Shown here one piece after another: positions 2,269 through 32,662 of a DNA stretch of 32,764 nucleotides. The stretch's first letter is position 1. Each line of letters begins with the position of its first letter. This stretch comes from a virus: positions 1 to 32,764 of the IMG/VR virus record IMGVR_UViG_3300031576_000225, one strand, 5' to 3'. Under the pieces are notes generated by a model. That model was not told the origin of the DNA. It ran no database searches and was given only the letters and a program-made list of their open reading frames with translations. The translations under genes and the position numbers were made by a program.

Positions 2269-3630
2269 CTACCCCACCGCGCGCCCTTCAGCGAGGTTCT
2301 CAAAGCGCGTGTACTGGTTCAAAAACGCGAGCTTCACCATCCCGGTCGGCCCGTTCCGCTGCTTGCCGACGATGATCTCCGCTACCCCCTTGTCCCCCGA
2401 CTCTTTGTTGTAGACCTCGTCGCGATAGATGAACGCGATCAGATCCGCGTCCTGCTCGATGGCGCCGGACTCGCGCAGATCCGAAAGCTGCGGGCGCTTG
2501 TCGGCGCGCGCCTCGACGCCGCGGTTCAACTGCGAGAGCGCAAGCACGGGCACGCGCAGCTCCTTGGCCAGCGCCTTCAACCCGCGGCTGATCTCCGAGA
2601 TCTCCCGCTCGCGGTTGTGATCCCTGCCCCCCGGCCGCCCCTGGATGAGCTGGAGATAGTCGATCACGATGAGCCCGTGCTGGTTCGGCGCAGAAAAGAT
2701 CTTCGGGTCGGCTCGCCAGCGACGACACTTGGTGCGGATCTCGAGCAGGGTGGGCGCACCCGAATCGTCGATCCAGATCGGCGCCTCGGAGATCCGGCTC
2801 GCCGCGCGCGTGAGGTTGATCCAGTCGCGCTGGTCGAGGAACCCGCCGCGGAGGCGCGTGGAGTCGACGCGCGCCTCGCAGCACAGGAGCCGCCCGCACA
2901 ACGACTCCTTCGACATCTCGAGCGAAAACACGAGCACCGGCACGCTCCATTCGATGGCTGCGTTCTCGGCCGCGTTCATGGCCAGCGCGGTCTTGCCCAT
3001 CGACGGGCGCGCGGCGACGATCACGAGCTCCGAGGGCTGGAAGCCGCAGGTGAGCGCGTCGAGCTTGTGGTAGCCGGACGGTACGCCGGTGACGGCCTGT
3101 TTGCGGTCGTAGCGCAGCTCGACCGCCTTGATGGTGGTGTTCAGCACCTTCTTGATCGGCTCGTAGCCCTGGCGCTGCGTGCGGTCCGCGATCTCGAAGA
3201 TGGCGCGCTCGGCCTCGTCGAGGTAGTCGTCGACGTCGCCGTATTCGCCGTAGCCGCGCGCCGCGATCTCCTGGGCGGTCTCGATCAGCCGCCGCGCGGT
3301 GGCCTTGGCCCGCACGGTGCGCGCGTGGAACGCGATGTTCTCGACGGTGAGGACGGCGCTGGTGAGCTCGACGAAGTAGGCCTCGCCGCGCACGGCGCGC
3401 AGCTTGGCGAACGAATCATTCGCGCGCATCTGCTCGGCGATGGTGATCGGATCGATCGGCTTGCCGTCGGCGTCGAGCTCGACCATCGACTGGTAGATGG
3501 CGGTGTGCGCGGGGTGATAGAAGTCCTGCGGCTCGACCAGGTCGGCGATCTGGTGGAACGACTGGTGGTAGAGGAGCACGCCGCCGAGCACCGACATCTC
3601 GGCCTCGAGGTTGTGCGGGAGTACGGTCAC
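2269..3630 (-). CDS. dnaB: Replicative DNA helicase DnaB
   Basis: A full-length 453-residue DnaB. The N-terminal domain starts with the family-typical LPHNLEAEMSVLGG. The RecA-like domain has Walker A ARPSMGKT (207-214), VFSLEMS (234-240), Walker B IVIDYLQL (321-328), LSQLNRGVEAR (365-375) with SDLRESGAIEQDAD, and the arginine-finger region GKQRNGPTG (422-430). DnaB forms a hexamer that unwinds DNA at replication forks. The GTG start at 3630 overlaps the DUF1643 stop (GTGA), so the gene is translationally coupled to the phage early operon and is not a flanking host gene. Mu itself recruits host DnaB through the PriA primosome, so a phage-borne copy in a Mu-like element is unusual. No DnaC-type loader or primase was recognised; MuB or a small neighbour might help loading, which is speculation. 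Confidence 0.95.
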   Translation of the reverse strand: MTVLPHNLEAEMSVLGGVLLYHQSFHQIADLVEPQDFYHPAHTAIYQSMVELDADGKPIDPITIAEQMRANDSFAKLRAVRGEAYFVELTSAVLTVENIAFHARTVRAKATARRLIETAQEIAARGYGEYGDVDDYLDEAERAIFEIADRTQRQGYEPIKKVLNTTIKAVELRYDRKQAVTGVPSGYHKLDALTCGFQPSELVIVAARPSMGKTALAMNAAENAAIEWSVPVLVFSLEMSKESLCGRLLCCEARVDSTRLRGGFLDQRDWINLTRAASRISEAPIWIDDSGAPTLLEIRTKCRRWRADPKIFSAPNQHGLIVIDYLQLIQGRPGGRDHNREREISEISRGLKALAKELRVPVLALSQLNRGVEARADKRPQLSDLRESGAIEQDADLIAFIYRDEVYNKESGDKGVAEIIVGKQRNGPTGMVKLAFLNQYTRFENLAEGRAVG

Positions 3631-4235
3631 GACGCGCCGAATGCTGCGGCGACGCGGACACCGAGGGGCACGCCGCTGGTGGGGGTCAACGTTGCCATCA
3701 CGCGCTGAGTCTTGGGCAAGAAGAGGGGATGCCGAGGCTCCCCTCGCTTGGTGAGGCCGAGCACCAGCGGGTTCGTTGTCGTGGAGCCCCACTCCAAGAT
3801 TGAGGGGAGGAGCCGGCGGCGGATCTGATTGTCCTTGAAGGCGCCCCAGGCCGCCACGTGCAGCGCAAAGAACGGACCGAGACGGAGCACTTCGAGGTTG
3901 CGCGGCCCGACGGGATCCTCCACGTGCGCCAGCTCTGCCGGGTCCGTTGCGCGCCAGGCCGCGAGGTTGCGCACGAGGACGCCGCCACACCCCTCCTGCC
4001 GAGCGAAGTGGATGACCCGGCGGATCGTCGGGTCGTCGACGGAGTGATCCGCGGTACTCGGGTTGAGCATCACGATCGCCAGCACGGGGGCGGTGGCCTC
4101 ATCGAACAGCCCGCGCCCAGGTCCCGGTTCCCAGGATCGACCGAGCGCGTAGCGGTAGCGATGGTCGGGAGACATGATCGCCCACGAATACCAGTCCCCA
4201 TCGGTAACGAGCCCGTCGAGCCGCAGCGGCATCAT
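3627..4235 (-). CDS. DUF1643 family protein
   Basis: A 202-residue protein of the DUF1643 family, whose biochemical role is unknown. Diagnostic motifs are IVMLNPSTADHSVDDPTIRR (about 60-80), GGVLVRNLAAWRATDP, DPVGPRN, HVAAWGAF and LGLTKRGEPRHPLFLP. The start at 4235 is chosen because ATG overlaps the TGA of the sigma-like gene (ATGATG, 4 bases), giving a family-typical length; the frame is open further up but in the overlap of that gene. It is coupled downstream to dnaB by GTGA. DUF1643 genes are common on phages and mobile elements. A second, truncated copy lies at 1390-1797. Confidence 0.9.
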   Translation of the reverse strand: MMPLRLDGLVTDGDWYSWAIMSPDHRYRYALGRSWEPGPGRGLFDEATAPVLAIVMLNPSTADHSVDDPTIRRVIHFARQEGCGGVLVRNLAAWRATDPAELAHVEDPVGPRNLEVLRLGPFFALHVAAWGAFKDNQIRRRLLPSILEWGSTTTNPLVLGLTKRGEPRHPLFLPKTQRVMATLTPTSGVPLGVRVAAAFGAS

Positions 4236-11448: not shown

Positions 11449-12881
11449 CCCACCCCCTCGCGCCGCTCTACGGCTACCAGTGCCGGTGGATCGAAGATCC
11501 GTCGCCCCGCAAGGCCGGCCTCTGGTCCCGCTCGGCGGGGAAGACGCACGCCCTGATGCTCGAGGCGGCGATCGCGTGCGAGATGGCCGACGCGGAGCGC
11601 CGCGCGGACCCCTGGTTCTGCTTTGCCGCGGCGGAGGTGCAGACGCGGGAGATGGTCCGCTACGCGGCGATCCACGCGCGCGCGATCGGACTCGGGTGCG
11701 AGATCCTGGACGAGGATCACGTGGTGCGAGACGAACGCGGCGAGCGCAAGATCACCATGCTCTCCGTCGGATACGAGCACGGCTCACGGATCGTCGGCCT
11801 CCCGACGAACCCGTTCTCGATCCGCGGCAAGCACGGCAACCTCATCGGGGACGAGGGTGGCCACTGGCCGAACGCGGAGGAGATCTGGACGGCAGCGGCG
11901 CCGATCGCGAGCCGCCGACGGTACAAGGTGCGCCTCGCCGGCACGGCCGGTGAGCGGCGGGGGCCGTTCTACGAGATCCTGAACGGTGTACGCGAGGGGT
12001 GGAGCGTCCACCGGATCGACGTGCACCAAGCGATCGCAGAGGGGTGCCCGATCGATCTCACCGACGTGCGTGCGCTCGTCGGTGGAGGGCGTCGGTTCGC
12101 GACGGAATATCTACTCCAGTTTGAGGATGCGGAGTCCAGGCTGCTCGCGCTCGAGGCGCTCCTCGGCTGCGAGGATCCGGAGACGCTCGCGACGCCGTTC
12201 GTGCGCGTATCGGCTGAAGCGCCGGCCTGGCGCGCGCTGCTCGACGCGACGCCGTCCGAGCCCGTGCCGTCGGAGGGCTACGACGCACCCGAGGCATGGC
12301 GGCGGCTGTTCGCTCCCCTCCGGGGGGATCTCTACGTCGGGTTCGACGTCGCGCGGAAGCGCGACCTCTCGGTGATCTCCCTGATCGAGCGGGACGGATT
12401 GCTGCGCCGCGCGCGCGCGGTTGTGGCGCTGCACAGGAGGCGATTCGCCGAGCAACGAGCCTGCCTGTTCGCGGCGATCGAGCGCGCCCGTCGAGCGTGC
12501 ATCGACGCCACCGGCCTCGGCCAACAGATCGCGGAGGAGGCGGTGGAGCGATTCGGCGCGCACCGGGTGGAGGCCGTGACGTTCACGGCGTCGGTGAAGG
12601 AGGATCTGGTGACGCGCATCCTCCGCGGAGTCGAGGACCGCAGCCTGCGACTTCCGGCGGTGCCGGAGATCCGCGAGTCGCTGCACAGCGTGTACAAGCT
12701 CACCACCGCGGCGGGCAATGTGCGGTACGACGCGACGTCGACCGAGGAGCACGGCCATGCGGACTATTTTTGGGCGCTGGGGCTCGCGCTCCTGGCCGCA
12801 GGCGACGCGCGGGCGATGACCGCGGGACAAATCCAGAGCTGGGGCCGCGCGCGCCACCGGCGAGAGGACGCGCTCGCATGA
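11445..12881 (+). CDS. Terminase large subunit (Mu gp28-like)
   Basis: 478 residues. ATPase domain: Walker A WSRSAGKT (27-34) and Walker B NLIGDEGGHW (about 132-141), then a coupling motif LAGTAGERRGPFYE. Nuclease domain: DLYVGFDVARKRDLSVI (about 296-312), CIDATGLGQQIAEE and KEDLVTRI, the RNase-H-like fold of headful terminases. It packages DNA into proheads; in Mu-type phages it cuts outside the phage ends and takes host DNA along. ATGA overlaps couple it to gp27-like and portal genes. Confidence 0.93.
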   Translation: MTHPLAPLYGYQCRWIEDPSPRKAGLWSRSAGKTHALMLEAAIACEMADAERRADPWFCFAAAEVQTREMVRYAAIHARAIGLGCEILDEDHVVRDERGERKITMLSVGYEHGSRIVGLPTNPFSIRGKHGNLIGDEGGHWPNAEEIWTAAAPIASRRRYKVRLAGTAGERRGPFYEILNGVREGWSVHRIDVHQAIAEGCPIDLTDVRALVGGGRRFATEYLLQFEDAESRLLALEALLGCEDPETLATPFVRVSAEAPAWRALLDATPSEPVPSEGYDAPEAWRRLFAPLRGDLYVGFDVARKRDLSVISLIERDGLLRRARAVVALHRRRFAEQRACLFAAIERARRACIDATGLGQQIAEEAVERFGAHRVEAVTFTASVKEDLVTRILRGVEDRSLRLPAVPEIRESLHSVYKLTTAAGNVRYDATSTEEHGHADYFWALGLALLAAGDARAMTAGQIQSWGRARHRREDALA

Positions 12882-14245
12882 AGTTCTCCTGGCGGAGGAA
12901 TTTCGCGCCCGCGCTCGCGGCGGCCCCGAAGGAGGCGTTCACGGGCCCGCCGATTGCCCAGCCGAAGCTCTGGCGCTCGTATCCGGTGGACGGGATCTCA
13001 CCGGAGAAGCTGCGCCGGATCGAGCGCGACGCCGATCGCGGCTACACCCGCGAGCTCATGGAGCTCTACGATGACGTCGCCAAGCACCCGCACGTGGCAC
13101 GCGAGATCCGGCGAGCGAAGTTCGCGATCGCCGGCGCCGAGCTGGCGGTCACGCCAGGTGACGAGAGCGACCGCGGATCGGAGATCGCGCGAGCGGCACG
13201 GCTGTTCCTCGGGAGGATCCCGCGGCTCGCGCAGATGCACACGGATCTCCTCGACGCCGAGTTCAGGGGCGTCGCGGCCGTGTGGCCGCGGTGGGAAGCC
13301 GCGCGCGGCGCGTGGTGGGTGGTGGACTGGCAGGCCATCGACTCGCGACTATTTCGCCTCGACGCCGATGGCCGTGTGCTGATCGAGACGGCCGAGCACC
13401 TATCGGGGGAGCCGGTGCCCGCGGGCGTGATCCTGCACACGACCGGGGACATGGGGCCGGCGCTCACCCGCGGCGGCTTCGGCCGATCGATCTTGCGGCC
13501 GTGGCTATACGCCGGCTTCGCGGTGGTGGACACGTCCTCGTTCCTCGAGAGGTTCGGTCATCCCTACGTCTTCGCCGAGACGCCGCCCAATCTCCAGGAG
13601 GGCTCCCCGGAGATCGAGCGCGTCAAGGCGGCGCTCCGGGCGCTGGTGGTCGACTCGAGCGCGCTCGTGCCGCCCGGGGTCAAGATCCAGTTTCTCTCCG
13701 CCATCGACAAAGCGGGGACGGTGAGGGATGCCTTCCTCGCCTTCGTGGAGTGGTGTGAGGGCGCGATCAGCAAGGCGGTCAACGGGCAGACGCTGACCGC
13801 CCAGATCGGGGACAAGGGGAGCCTCGCGGCGGCGCGGGTGCACGCGGACGAGGCGCTCCTGATCGTCAGGGCGCGCGCGACGCGCTACGCCGAGACCCTG
13901 CGGACCCAGCTGATCGCGCCGTGGACGGAGCATCACTTCGGCGCGGGTGCTCCGGTTCCCGGCCTGGCGTTCTTGGTGGATCCGCCCGAGGACGCGCAGG
14001 CGCGCGCCCAGGCGGAGAAGACGCGCGCCGAGACGCTCGCCCTGGTGAGCGGCGCGTTGCGGGTGCCGATCGCGATCCGGCAGGTGCGCCAGGAGTTCCA
14101 CCTGGTCAAGCCCGAAAAAGGAGAGGCCCAGGTGGGAGAAATGGCACCACGGCTCTCCGCGCACGGCGTCTGCCCGCATTGCCACAGCGGGATCGATCTC
14201 GCCGTGGCCCAAAAAAAAAGCCAGGCGGTGGCCTGGGTGACCTGA
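12878..14245 (+). CDS. Portal protein, DUF935 family (Mu gp29)
   Basis: 455 residues in the zero frame. The ATG at 12878 overlaps the terminase stop; the longer open frame is a shadow of terminase. DUF935 features include LWRSYPVDGISPEKLRRIERDADRGY near the start, VVDWQAIDSRLFRLD, GPALTRGGFGRSILRPWLYA, FLERFGHPYVFAE and NGQTLTAQIGDKGSLAAARVHADE. The portal is the dodecameric DNA gate of the head. The end is odd: after CPHCHSGIDLAVAQ comes a run of nine A, then a short tail and stop. The C-terminal helices usual for DUF935 proteins seem to lie in the -1 frame beyond the A9 run (DELLSRLEETG and EQMFRAHMLGQMQ), so the full portal may need a frameshift. Confidence 0.92.
   Translation: MKFSWRRNFAPALAAAPKEAFTGPPIAQPKLWRSYPVDGISPEKLRRIERDADRGYTRELMELYDDVAKHPHVAREIRRAKFAIAGAELAVTPGDESDRGSEIARAARLFLGRIPRLAQMHTDLLDAEFRGVAAVWPRWEAARGAWWVVDWQAIDSRLFRLDADGRVLIETAEHLSGEPVPAGVILHTTGDMGPALTRGGFGRSILRPWLYAGFAVVDTSSFLERFGHPYVFAETPPNLQEGSPEIERVKAALRALVVDSSALVPPGVKIQFLSAIDKAGTVRDAFLAFVEWCEGAISKAVNGQTLTAQIGDKGSLAAARVHADEALLIVRARATRYAETLRTQLIAPWTEHHFGAGAPVPGLAFLVDPPEDAQARAQAEKTRAETLALVSGALRVPIAIRQVRQEFHLVKPEKGEAQVGEMAPRLSAHGVCPHCHSGIDLAVAQKKSQAVAWVT
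14212..14236 (+). promoter_or_regulatory. Candidate -1 frameshift site: A9 slippery run plus hairpin
   Basis: Nine A (14211-14219) include the heptamer A AAA AAA in the portal frame (14212-14218). A perfect 6-bp stem CCAGGC/GCCTGG with loop GGTG follows at 14221-14236. A -1 slip joins the portal (447 codons) to the frame that runs to 15903 with no stop, giving a portal-F fusion of about 1,008 residues. The spacer to the stem is only two bases, shorter than usual. Polymerase slippage, or a homopolymer sequencing error, are alternatives. Confidence 0.55.
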
Positions 14246-14253
14246 ACGATTTG

Positions 14254-15903
14254 ATGGAGCCGCCCGCGGATCTCGCGGCGGCCCGAGAGGGTCTGGACGA
14301 TGAACTGCTTTCACGGCTCGAGGAGACAGGGATCATGAGACTGCGCGACGCGATCTTCGCGCTGCTCGCGACGGCCGCCGTCGGCCGAGCGGCCGAAGCC
14401 CTCACCGAACAGATGTTCCGGGCGCACATGCTCGGCCAGATGCAGGCACCGAGCGCCTGGGACACCGCCGAGCTCGCGCTCCAGCCGCAGTGGACGGCGC
14501 TGCCGTTCGACCAGGCCGTGGACTTCTTCCGCCGGAAGACCCCGATGACGTCGAAAGAGTGGAGCGAGCTCGAAGACAGATACAAGTCGAAGGGCTTCCG
14601 CATCGCAGGTGACTACGATCTGGCGCGCCTCCGCCGAGCGCACGATCTACTCGGCGAGGTGCTGGCCGATGGGATACCGGAGCGCCAGGCGATCCGGCGG
14701 CTCAAGGCGGAGCTGCCGGAGGAGGGGGAGTTCCACCTCCGGACCGCATACGACCAGGCGATGCTCGGGAGCTACGCGGCCGGCAGGTGGGCGCAGCTCA
14801 CGCACCCGGACGTGCTGCGCGCCCGGCCCTACTGGCAGTACCGCACCGTCGGCGACAACCGAGTGCGCCTCTCGCACCGCGCGATGGACGGCAAGGTCTA
14901 TCCGGCCGACCATGCGGTGTGGCAGGAATGGTATCCCCCGAACGGATACTCCTGCCGGTGCGGCGTGCGCTCGATCTCGGCCTCGGAGGCCGAGGCGAGC
15001 GGTCTCGCGATCGAGGAGCGGTTGCCGGATCGCGCGGAGGTCGACGGCCAGGCGGTGATCGTGCGACCGGACCCGGGGTTCTCGGGGTCGCCGGCGACGC
15101 AGGAGACCGCGGACCGGGTGCTGCGAGCGATCGAGCGTGACGTGCACGGCCGGGGGGCACTACTCCCGACCGCCGCGGGGCTGGATCGCGCAGGCGATCC
15201 GGAGCGGCGGCAAGCGGTCGATCGGCTCGCGGGGCTGGGCGAAGACGAGCTGGAGGATCGGCTCCGGGAGCTGTTCGTGTTCAACGTGTATCCAGAGGCC
15301 GACGCAGAGCCTCCCGCGGGGCACCTCCACGTGGACTGGGCCATGTACAGCCAGGACATGCGCACCGTCGAGCAGATGGCCTGGCGGCTCGTGCAGGAGC
15401 GTGGCTTGTGGGATCTGCGGGATCGGGATCGGATCGAGGTCAAGGTGCGAGCGTCGTACCTCGCGAGCTGGGATCCGGAGCGGTGGCGAAATCCCGAGGT
15501 CGTGTTCGACGACGACCTGGCGCGGCGGCTCGGCGTGCCGGCGGGGCAGACCGCGGCGCGCAGCACGGAGCTCGTGCTACGGCTGCGCGCACGGCCAGCG
15601 GAGATCCAGACGCTGCTCGGATTCCTCGCCGGGAACGGCGAGGATCCGGTAGATGGAGAGGGCCGGCGGATCTACCCGGGACGGAGCCCGGTGAGGGGGG
15701 CCTGGGACGTGCAGGACGTGCGCGTCACGGCGGGACGCGGAGTGGATTTGCCCGGGGACGATGAGCAGTGGCGCAGGGGCACGCGGAACGTGCGACGCGG
15801 CCCAGGAGGAGGAGATGAGGTGACGCTCTCGCGCCAGGCGATGAAGGGGTTCGATCGGGCGGAGACGATCCTGGTCAACCGTCGCCTCTGGGAGTACCTG
15901 TAG
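14254..15903 (+). CDS. F-like head morphogenesis protein (Mu gp30)
   Basis: 549 residues from ATG 14254; ATG 14335 has a better ribosome site (GAGGAGACAGG) and may be the true independent start. Core motifs are LPFDQAVDFFRRKTPMT, then ARPYWQYRTVGDNRVRLSHR, KVYPADHAVWQEWYPPNGYS and CRCGVRSIS, the phage head morphogenesis (SPP1 gp7/Mu F) domain. Residues 300-549 form an extra C-terminal region with no match I recognise (includes FVFNVYPEADAE and HVDWAMYSQDMRT). Mu F is a minor head protein. The frame is open upstream to the A9 run, so it can be made as a fusion to the portal. No good ribosome site precedes 14254. Confidence 0.85.
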   Translation: MEPPADLAAAREGLDDELLSRLEETGIMRLRDAIFALLATAAVGRAAEALTEQMFRAHMLGQMQAPSAWDTAELALQPQWTALPFDQAVDFFRRKTPMTSKEWSELEDRYKSKGFRIAGDYDLARLRRAHDLLGEVLADGIPERQAIRRLKAELPEEGEFHLRTAYDQAMLGSYAAGRWAQLTHPDVLRARPYWQYRTVGDNRVRLSHRAMDGKVYPADHAVWQEWYPPNGYSCRCGVRSISASEAEASGLAIEERLPDRAEVDGQAVIVRPDPGFSGSPATQETADRVLRAIERDVHGRGALLPTAAGLDRAGDPERRQAVDRLAGLGEDELEDRLRELFVFNVYPEADAEPPAGHLHVDWAMYSQDMRTVEQMAWRLVQERGLWDLRDRDRIEVKVRASYLASWDPERWRNPEVVFDDDLARRLGVPAGQTAARSTELVLRLRARPAEIQTLLGFLAGNGEDPVDGEGRRIYPGRSPVRGAWDVQDVRVTAGRGVDLPGDDEQWRRGTRNVRRGPGGGDEVTLSRQAMKGFDRAETILVNRRLWEYL

Positions 15904-15912
15904 ATGGAGACG

Positions 15913-16194
15913 TTATGCGGCCTGCTCGGCACCGCGCTGCTTCTCGTCGCGATGGTACATCCCGGCGACGCGGGGGTGGGGGTTCCGCGAGCGGGCGAAG
16001 CCGCCCTGGTACGCCCGGAATTCCTCTCCCCGGTACAGGGCCCAGGCGATCGGCCCGTCGCGCTGGGGATCGCCGCAATCAAAGCAGATGACATCGACGG
16101 GGGCGGCGAGTCCGAGTGCGGCCCACGGCCCGAGCCGAGCCGTATCGATCTCAACCACGCCCCCGCACGCGATGCACTCGTATTGGGCGATCAT
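15913..16194 (-). CDS. Antisense zinc-ribbon protein in the late region (moron candidate)
   Basis: 93 residues, the only leftward gene among the head genes. It begins MIAQYECIACGGVVEID and has a second pair CFDCGDP, together a four-Cys zinc ribbon, then a basic end (FARSRNPHPRVAGMYHRDEK). The start at 16194 is preferred over a longer frame because the domain begins there and a TTGACA element lies just upstream. It fills the gap between F and protease genes. A gene opposed to the late operon with its own promoter is the usual arrangement of a moron expressed in the lysogen. Function unknown. Confidence 0.6.
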   Translation of the reverse strand: MIAQYECIACGGVVEIDTARLGPWAALGLAAPVDVICFDCGDPQRDGPIAWALYRGEEFRAYQGGFARSRNPHPRVAGMYHRDEKQRGAEQAA

Positions 16195-16203
16195 GACGAC
16201 AGC

Positions 16204-16232
16204 AGCATCGCACCCCCCAAAAAAGGTGTCAA
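16204..16232 (-). promoter_or_regulatory. Possible promoter of the antisense zinc-ribbon gene
   Basis: Minus strand: perfect -35 TTGACA (16232-16227), 17-base spacer, weak -10 GATGCT (16209-16204). The start would be about 16197, three bases before the ATG at 16194, and no ribosome site is seen. The arrangement resembles the repressor promoter, but the -10 is poor. The adjoining C6A6 run is unusual. Confidence 0.35.
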
Positions 16233-16382
16233 GGGGGCCTTGGGCGGAATTTGCGCCATGGACGGGATCCCTGATTCCGCCCCACATCGCGCCCAAGCCA
16301 CTTCCTCTCCACTTCCCTGCACTTCCTTCCATGGGGGAGTGGTCTACTGCCGCCCGGGGTCCGATCGGCGCCCCTGGGCCAA

Positions 16383-22543: not shown

Positions 22544-23056
22544 ATGGCCACCTACGTCGATCGCCTCATCTGCGCTCAGCGCGACCGCCGTCGCCGTGTG
22601 CCCTGGCCCGGGTGGACGGGAGGTGGCGAGCCGCCCGAGATCGAGCTGCGCGCCCTCTCCGCGCTCGAGCAGGAGGCGGCCTACCTGGCCGCCCAGGCAC
22701 ATCTGGGCAAAAAGGTCTCCCCGACCGACTATGCCTTCATCGCGCGCGAGCGCATCGAGCAGCTCTTCCGCGGGCTGGTCTCGGTCGGTGGCGAGCGGTT
22801 CGCCGACAGCGCCGCTTCCATCGCACAACTCCCCCCGGAGACCATCGCCCCGCTCTACCAGGAGTGGGCCGCGCTCCAGGCGAGCGTCGCACCGCCCCCC
22901 ATCTCCAGGGCCGAGATCGAGCGCCTGGTGGAGGGGGTAAAAAAAAATTCCCCCGAAATTCGGTTGGAAGACTGGCCTATCGACTGGCTGAGAAGGGCCA
23001 TTGTTATTTTGGCCGACCAGTCATCGACCTCGATCGTGGCCAGCTCCTCCTCCTGA
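22544..23056 (+). CDS. Tail assembly chaperone, zero-frame product (Mu gp41 position)
   Basis: 170 residues, lying between tube and tape-measure genes where tail chaperones are made. Mostly helical: ELRALSALEQEAAYLAAQAH, YAFIARERIEQLFRGLVSV and ETIAPLYQEWAALQASV. Near residue 132 the codons GTA AAA AAA AAT carry a run of nine A. Beyond it the zero frame continues only 37 codons (ending SIVASSSS), while the -1 frame is open for 79 codons. This is the classic G/G-T arrangement. Chaperones coat the tape measure before tube polymerisation. Confidence 0.88.
   Translation: MATYVDRLICAQRDRRRRVPWPGWTGGGEPPEIELRALSALEQEAAYLAAQAHLGKKVSPTDYAFIARERIEQLFRGLVSVGGERFADSAASIAQLPPETIAPLYQEWAALQASVAPPPISRAEIERLVEGVKKNSPEIRLEDWPIDWLRRAIVILADQSSTSIVASSSS
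22939..22963 (+). promoter_or_regulatory. Programmed -1 frameshift site of the tail chaperone
   Basis: A9 (22939-22947) supplies the heptamer A AAA AAA in frame (22939-22945). Downstream, CCGAAATTCGG (22953-22963) can form a short stem seven bases away, and G5 before and C5 after the run can pair around it. A -1 shift gives a fusion of about 213 residues ending at 23184. Confidence 0.8.
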
Positions 23057-23184
23057 TCGCGATGCACGCGAGTGACGTACAGATCGCGGCCGAGGATCGG
23101 GTAGACGCCGAGGATCGGCGGCGCAGCGCGATCACCTACGTCGCGCGCCGGAGGAAGCGTCGATCAAAACGCCGAGAAGAGTAA
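22945..23184 (+). CDS. Tail chaperone -1 frame extension (Mu gp42 position)
   Basis: 79 residues read only after the -1 slip, beginning KFPRNSVGRLAYRLAEKGHC and containing LLLLIAMHASDVQIAAEDR, DRRRSAITYVARRRKRR. No convincing independent start or ribosome site precedes it. Its stop overlaps the tape-measure ATG by one base (TAATG). The basic end is typical of the T domain that contacts the tape measure. Confidence 0.8.
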   Translation, partial: KFPRNSVGRLAYRLAEKGHCYFGRPVIDLDRGQLLLLIAMHASDVQIAAEDRVDAEDRRRSAITYVARRRKRRSKRREE

Positions 23185-32578: not shown

Positions 32579-32662
32579 GGGGAAAATCGACCGTGCCGGT
32601 GGAAAAATCGATCGTGCCGGTGGGAAAATCGATCGTGCCGGTGGGAAAATCGATCGTGCCGG
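32579..32662 (+). repeat. Right-end array: four tandem 21-bp transposase sites
   Basis: Units at 32579, 32600, 32621 and 32642, exactly 21 bases apart. The two outermost are identical over the full unit; the third has one G-to-A change before the A-run, and the innermost differs at its first base and has C for T in the ATCGATCG part. The unit is about two helical turns, so all four proteins would bind one face. Mu R1-R2 abut in the same way with a 22-bp period. Confidence 0.88.

Follow-up and report, generated by a model that had tools for sequence, protein, structure and literature searches.

A putative slippage site between the portal and F-like head genes of a Mu-like phage

The head-gene region described here raises the question of how a portal gene is decoded when its reading frame stops shortly after a run of nine A's (A9) and the sequence that follows appears to be coding in the -1 frame, through the whole of the next head gene. 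The window, meaning the entire stretch of DNA analysed, covers one virus record in full (32,764 bases, 69% GC) and has a Mu-like layout: leftward early genes, then rightward head and tail genes that include a tail sheath. The early region carries a DnaB helicase, identified by a Pfam match, and putative MuB- and MuA-like ORFs, so named from sequence and position only. On the minus strand, 382-1797 and 2269-3990 hold a leftward ORF that matches DUF1643 and contains BNR-type repeats, and the DnaB helicase gene of the early region. Repeats of GGGAAAATCGATCGTGCCGG occur as an inverted pair near the left end (124-158) and as about four direct copies near the right end (32580-32662). They may be transposase end-binding sites, in which case the window would represent an almost complete Mu-type provirus.

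The end of the portal gene and the change of frame

The features at the junction, all on the plus strand, are as follows.

12878-14245, plus strand: portal ORF in the zero frame, 455 aa, from ATG 12878 to TGA 14243-14245
13058-14098, plus strand: Portal_Mu core (PF06074, DUF935; profile positions 1-334 of 336, E 1.9e-60)
14211-14219, plus strand: A9 run, with the heptamer A AAA AAA at 14212-14218 in the portal frame
14221-14236, plus strand: hairpin with a perfect 6-bp stem, CCAGGC/GCCTGG, and loop GGTG (-12.4 kcal/mol, z -2.7 for 14220-14239)
14243-14245, plus strand: portal stop codon TGA, zero frame, read from the sequence
14218-15903, plus strand: continuation in the -1 frame, a portal C-terminal segment followed by an F-like minor head protein (from sequence, codon usage, PF04233 and phrog_220, the last at E 1.5e-51)
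14221-14450, plus strand: -1-frame segment similar to the C-terminal ends of Mu-type portals (14450 is approximate; profile match of 8-11 bits, and phmmer)
14659-14967, plus strand: Phage_Mu_F domain in the -1 frame (PF04233, residues 153-255 of P0002, E 3.9e-16)

The Portal_Mu domain is full-length within the portal ORF, and the solved portals 8rka and 9khx match the portal family of the window; no solved structure was found for F. What is unusual is the sequence after the core. Our comparison set held 170 Mu-type portal-F junctions, 135 of them distinct, including the window and its copy L001 and some other redundant members. In the window the zero frame continues for 141 nt beyond the core, against at least 312 nt at all other unfused junctions examined, and in four fused records the core runs on into F. 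The C-terminal segment is thus not in frame behind the portal core, but stands in the -1 frame. As judged from this shortfall, the zero-frame portal is truncated and is without most of its C-terminal part, which from its position would be the crown.

The distance from the portal core to F is ordinary, at 399 nt compared with a median of 407 nt in the other junctions, and the portals of Mushu, Rhodovulum RhkS_P1, MMP7, LPB1 and YPCBV-1, which are 487-528 aa long, end where F begins. A profile built from portal ends was matched in its last part by the -1 segment with a borderline 8-11 bits, a score equalled by 1 of 400 shuffles. When the segment was searched with phmmer, the ten best matches were all genuine portal C-termini, despite the presence of five times as many shuffled decoys; the resemblance to portal ends proposed in the original prediction is therefore supported. 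Because the zero frame falls short, the core-to-F distance is ordinary and portal ends are matched, the usual end of the portal seems not to be lost but to lie in the -1 frame, from which F continues without a stop.

Codon usage points the same way. Over 14221-14499 the -1 frame scores 0.244 per codon, compared with 0.306 for the portal and 0.25 for F, while none of 341 out-of-frame windows from other genes scored above -0.20. The best point for a switch of frame is 14237, and the likelihood becomes poor before about 14207 or after about 14250. Taken separately, 14254-14334 has a clear -1 coding signal and 14221-14253 an ambiguous one. By these measures there is a true change of frame, at the A9 run or no more than a few codons away, and codon usage and similarity mark the -1 segment as real coding sequence resembling portal C-termini. 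We rejected the open length of the -1 frame as evidence, because most of the -1 frame is open in a genome so rich in GC: within other genes, 85% of -1-frame residues belong to open stretches of 97 aa or longer. The original prediction was nonetheless accurate in its description of the site, namely a heptamer in the portal frame, a perfect 6-bp stem after it, and a -1 frame open through the F-like gene to 15903, giving a fused length of 1,008 aa.

Slippage and the alternatives

Across the A9 run the zero-frame codons are CAA AAA AAA AGC (14210-14221), so that the slippery heptamer lies in the correct phase and near the end of the first frame. Such runs are rare in the window, which has two of nine A's, one of eight and one of six; no run of eight or more is expected from shuffles, and only 0.3% of synonymous-codon shuffles of the late genes contained even one A9 (in this codon-choice test AAA made up 12.5% of Lys codons and CAA 9.5% of Gln codons). 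The second A9 lies in another late gene.

22544-23184, plus strand: presumed tail assembly chaperone, with its zero frame at 22544-23056, the A9 run at 22939-22947 and an extension in the -1 frame to 23184

The original prediction had also pointed to this run. The A9 is present and its slip direction is the same as that at the portal, but the gene is only presumed to encode the chaperone, from its position between the tail tube and tape measure genes, and it matched no Pfam or PHROG family. Beyond the run, the -1 frame has a codon score weakly above that of the zero frame. The run is flanked by GGGGG and CCCCC (22930-22956) and would sit in a hairpin loop, unlike the portal site.

We suggest that slippage on the A9 at 14211-14219 would give two decodings of the portal gene. 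If no slippage occurs, translation would stop at 14245 and yield a 455-aa portal missing most of the C-terminal (crown) part. A -1 slip of the ribosome, or the gain of one A (or loss of two) by RNA polymerase, would instead bring the -1 frame into use and produce a protein of 1,008 aa, in which the portal, C-terminal segment included, is joined to the F-like minor head protein. We regard slippage, by ribosome or polymerase, as the best explanation of this locus, with about an even chance of being correct. Some fused product is likely whatever its purpose, because A9 tracts are prone to shifting: an E. coli reporter with A_AAA_AAA_AA showed about 40% shift (PMC3711429), and about 50% slippage by RNA polymerase was found at the A9 of Thermus dnaX (PMC1088944).

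Both forms could perhaps be mixed in one ring. More tentatively, the ring may be built from crown-truncated portal and portal-F fusion in a ratio set by slippage on the A9, with only some subunits anchoring F inside the capsid. Slippage and its rate, the making of both forms, their entry into one ring and selection for their ratio are what we infer. Portal rings are usually treated as twelve identical subunits; slippage within the portal gene would instead lead to a ring of mixed composition and would couple the number of F copies to the number of portal copies.

A structure that stimulates a ribosomal -1 shift typically lies about 5-9 nt downstream of the heptamer, and polymerase slippage needs no stimulatory structure. 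Here the stem begins 2 nt past the heptamer, one base after the A9, and is therefore too near to be a typical stimulator and gives the ribosomal case no help. The 6-bp hairpin is also absent from the best fold of 14190-14260.

Among the alternatives, the one that fares best, though we consider it unlikely, is that the two genes are separate and their boundary has moved. The portal would end at 14245 and F would start by termination-reinitiation at ATG 14254, or partly at ATG 14335, so that the N-terminus of F would now hold the former portal C-terminal helices and the A9 would be incidental. Two possible starts are relevant.

14254-14256, plus strand: ATG in the -1 frame, possible reinitiation site, 8 nt after the portal stop, with no Shine-Dalgarno at the usual spacing
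14321-14337, plus strand: AGGAG 9 nt ahead of ATG 14335 in the -1 frame, possible internal start, read from the sequence

The original prediction had noted that ATG 14254 has no ribosome site. The observation is correct, but 11 of the 16 late-gene starts examined also have no Shine-Dalgarno sequence; coupled starts are thus normal for the phage, and reinitiation is possible. ATG 14335, which had been overlooked, does have its AGGAG; an equally good match was found at 5 of 53 internal late-gene ATGs. The codon signal can be read in favour of separate genes up to a point, as 14221-14253 is ambiguous and 14254-14334 gives a clear -1 signal, but the signal ahead of 14335 speaks against that ATG as the sole start of F, which we disfavour. 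Against separate genes in general, the position of the A9 exactly at the frame change is left unexplained, the other late genes of the operon mostly overlap or almost touch, and the A9 likely slips to some degree in any case (PMC3711429).

Less probable still is that the true or ancestral gene is a single portal-F ORF with ten A's, and that the A9 arose by recent mutation or through an error in sequencing or assembly. One more A would unite both frames in one ORF, long homopolymers attract such errors and mutations, four related records do have single-ORF fusions, and there is no close kin in the collections searched to contradict it. However, the listed late genes of the window are otherwise open, and a run of ten A's would be equally improbable by codon choice and equally slippery, so that two products would still be expected.

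Finally, the same stretch read leftward resembles an intrinsic terminator.

14211-14236, minus strand: intrinsic-terminator-like site, a hairpin, one base, then T9
15913-16332, minus strand: possible ORF of 139 aa with two CxxC pairs, between the F and head protease genes

We consider it very improbable that the hairpin and run serve to halt antisense transcription through the head genes, with the frame change having another cause: although the minus strand reads CCAGGCCACCGCCTGG-C-TTTTTTTTT, a G+C-rich hairpin with the T tract almost at once behind it, the clearest such site in the window and the only one with so long an unbroken T tract, and although the nearest possible leftward ORF, at 15913-16332, scores better by codon usage than the other five frames of that stretch (its score is weak, and neither Pfam nor PHROG gave a match), the ORF ends some 1.7 kb before the site, which lies within head genes, any A run with a hairpin looks alike on the opposite strand, and the hairpin but not the frame change would be accounted for.

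Slippage yielding a short and a fused portal is thus the best single reading, as the original prediction had it, but a programmed -1 ribosomal shift is not established, because the hairpin spacing is wrong for a typical ribosomal stimulator, a leftward terminator fits the hairpin equally well, polymerase slippage would give the same products, and reinitiation or a change from ten A's to nine are also to be weighed.

Portal-F junctions in other genomes

The arrangement seen in the window has no counterpart in our comparison set: a frame change at an A9 was found in none of the approximately 166 other Mu-type junctions examined. This counts against slippage, as does the lack of any close relative in the collections searched. 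Searches of viral contigs with the portal, F, terminase, capsid and transposase found no close relatives, nor did searches with F in genomes and in 395 genomes of one phylum; phage and plasmid collections gave distant matches only. The best identity to F from all collections searched was about 40%, over the conserved domain, and the distant relatives do not have the A9 run together with a frame change.

The portal and F form a single uninterrupted ORF in four Mu-type viral contigs (L059, L061, L072 and L137). We rejected a kinship of the window to these fusions, since, in a tree that did not include L137, the window forms a deep branch far away from the fused records. A Maledivibacter junction (L163) with an A9 in the same stretch of the portal was also considered as a second example and rejected, as the portal reading frame of this AT-rich gene is unbroken and the -1 frame contains many stops. 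In one further record (L038) the portal match ends at profile position 318 of 364 and F comes 538 nt later; we take this to be a broken portal gene or an assembly error.

Comparison with known systems

Slippage is well known for tail chaperones, dnaX and tssM (PMC3711429, PMC1088944). In the partial library of literature searched, no account of recoding at a portal gene or a portal-F junction turned up, in line with the original prediction. The present case would work like a known kind, slippage, in a new gene, and its membership in programmed recoding is putative. If this is correct, recoding in phages would take in the portal as well as tail chaperones and capsid or tail proteins.

The nearest functional parallel is the -1 frameshift of tail chaperones of the lambda gpG/gpGT type, in which, as in the window, a late gene ends soon after a slippery heptamer. 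There the less abundant product is extended at its C-terminus by -1-frame sequence, and the presumed chaperone of the window has the same A9. The difference is that in the window the gene is the portal and the extension would comprise the rest of the portal and a whole second head protein. In T. thermophilus dnaX and C. rodentium tssM, also like the window, 9-11 A's lie near the end of the first frame, and there are two length variants, as would be the case here; polymerase slippage suffices there without a downstream hairpin. Slippage has been measured in dnaX and tssM, whereas in the window it is predicted from sequence alone.

Portal-MuF fusions in one ORF have been described in Microbacterium phages (PMC7302621). 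In Microbacterium clusters EA and EB, and in the four Mu-type contigs with single-ORF fusions, portal and MuF are in one chain, as would be the case for the longer product here. Those fusions are read in one frame and every portal carries F, whereas in the window a frame change lies between portal and F. Compared with Mu gp29/F, JBD30 and Mushu, the window has the same gene order, domains and core-to-core distance; in these phages, unlike the window, the C-terminal segment is still part of the portal, and F begins with a short overlap or after a short gap.
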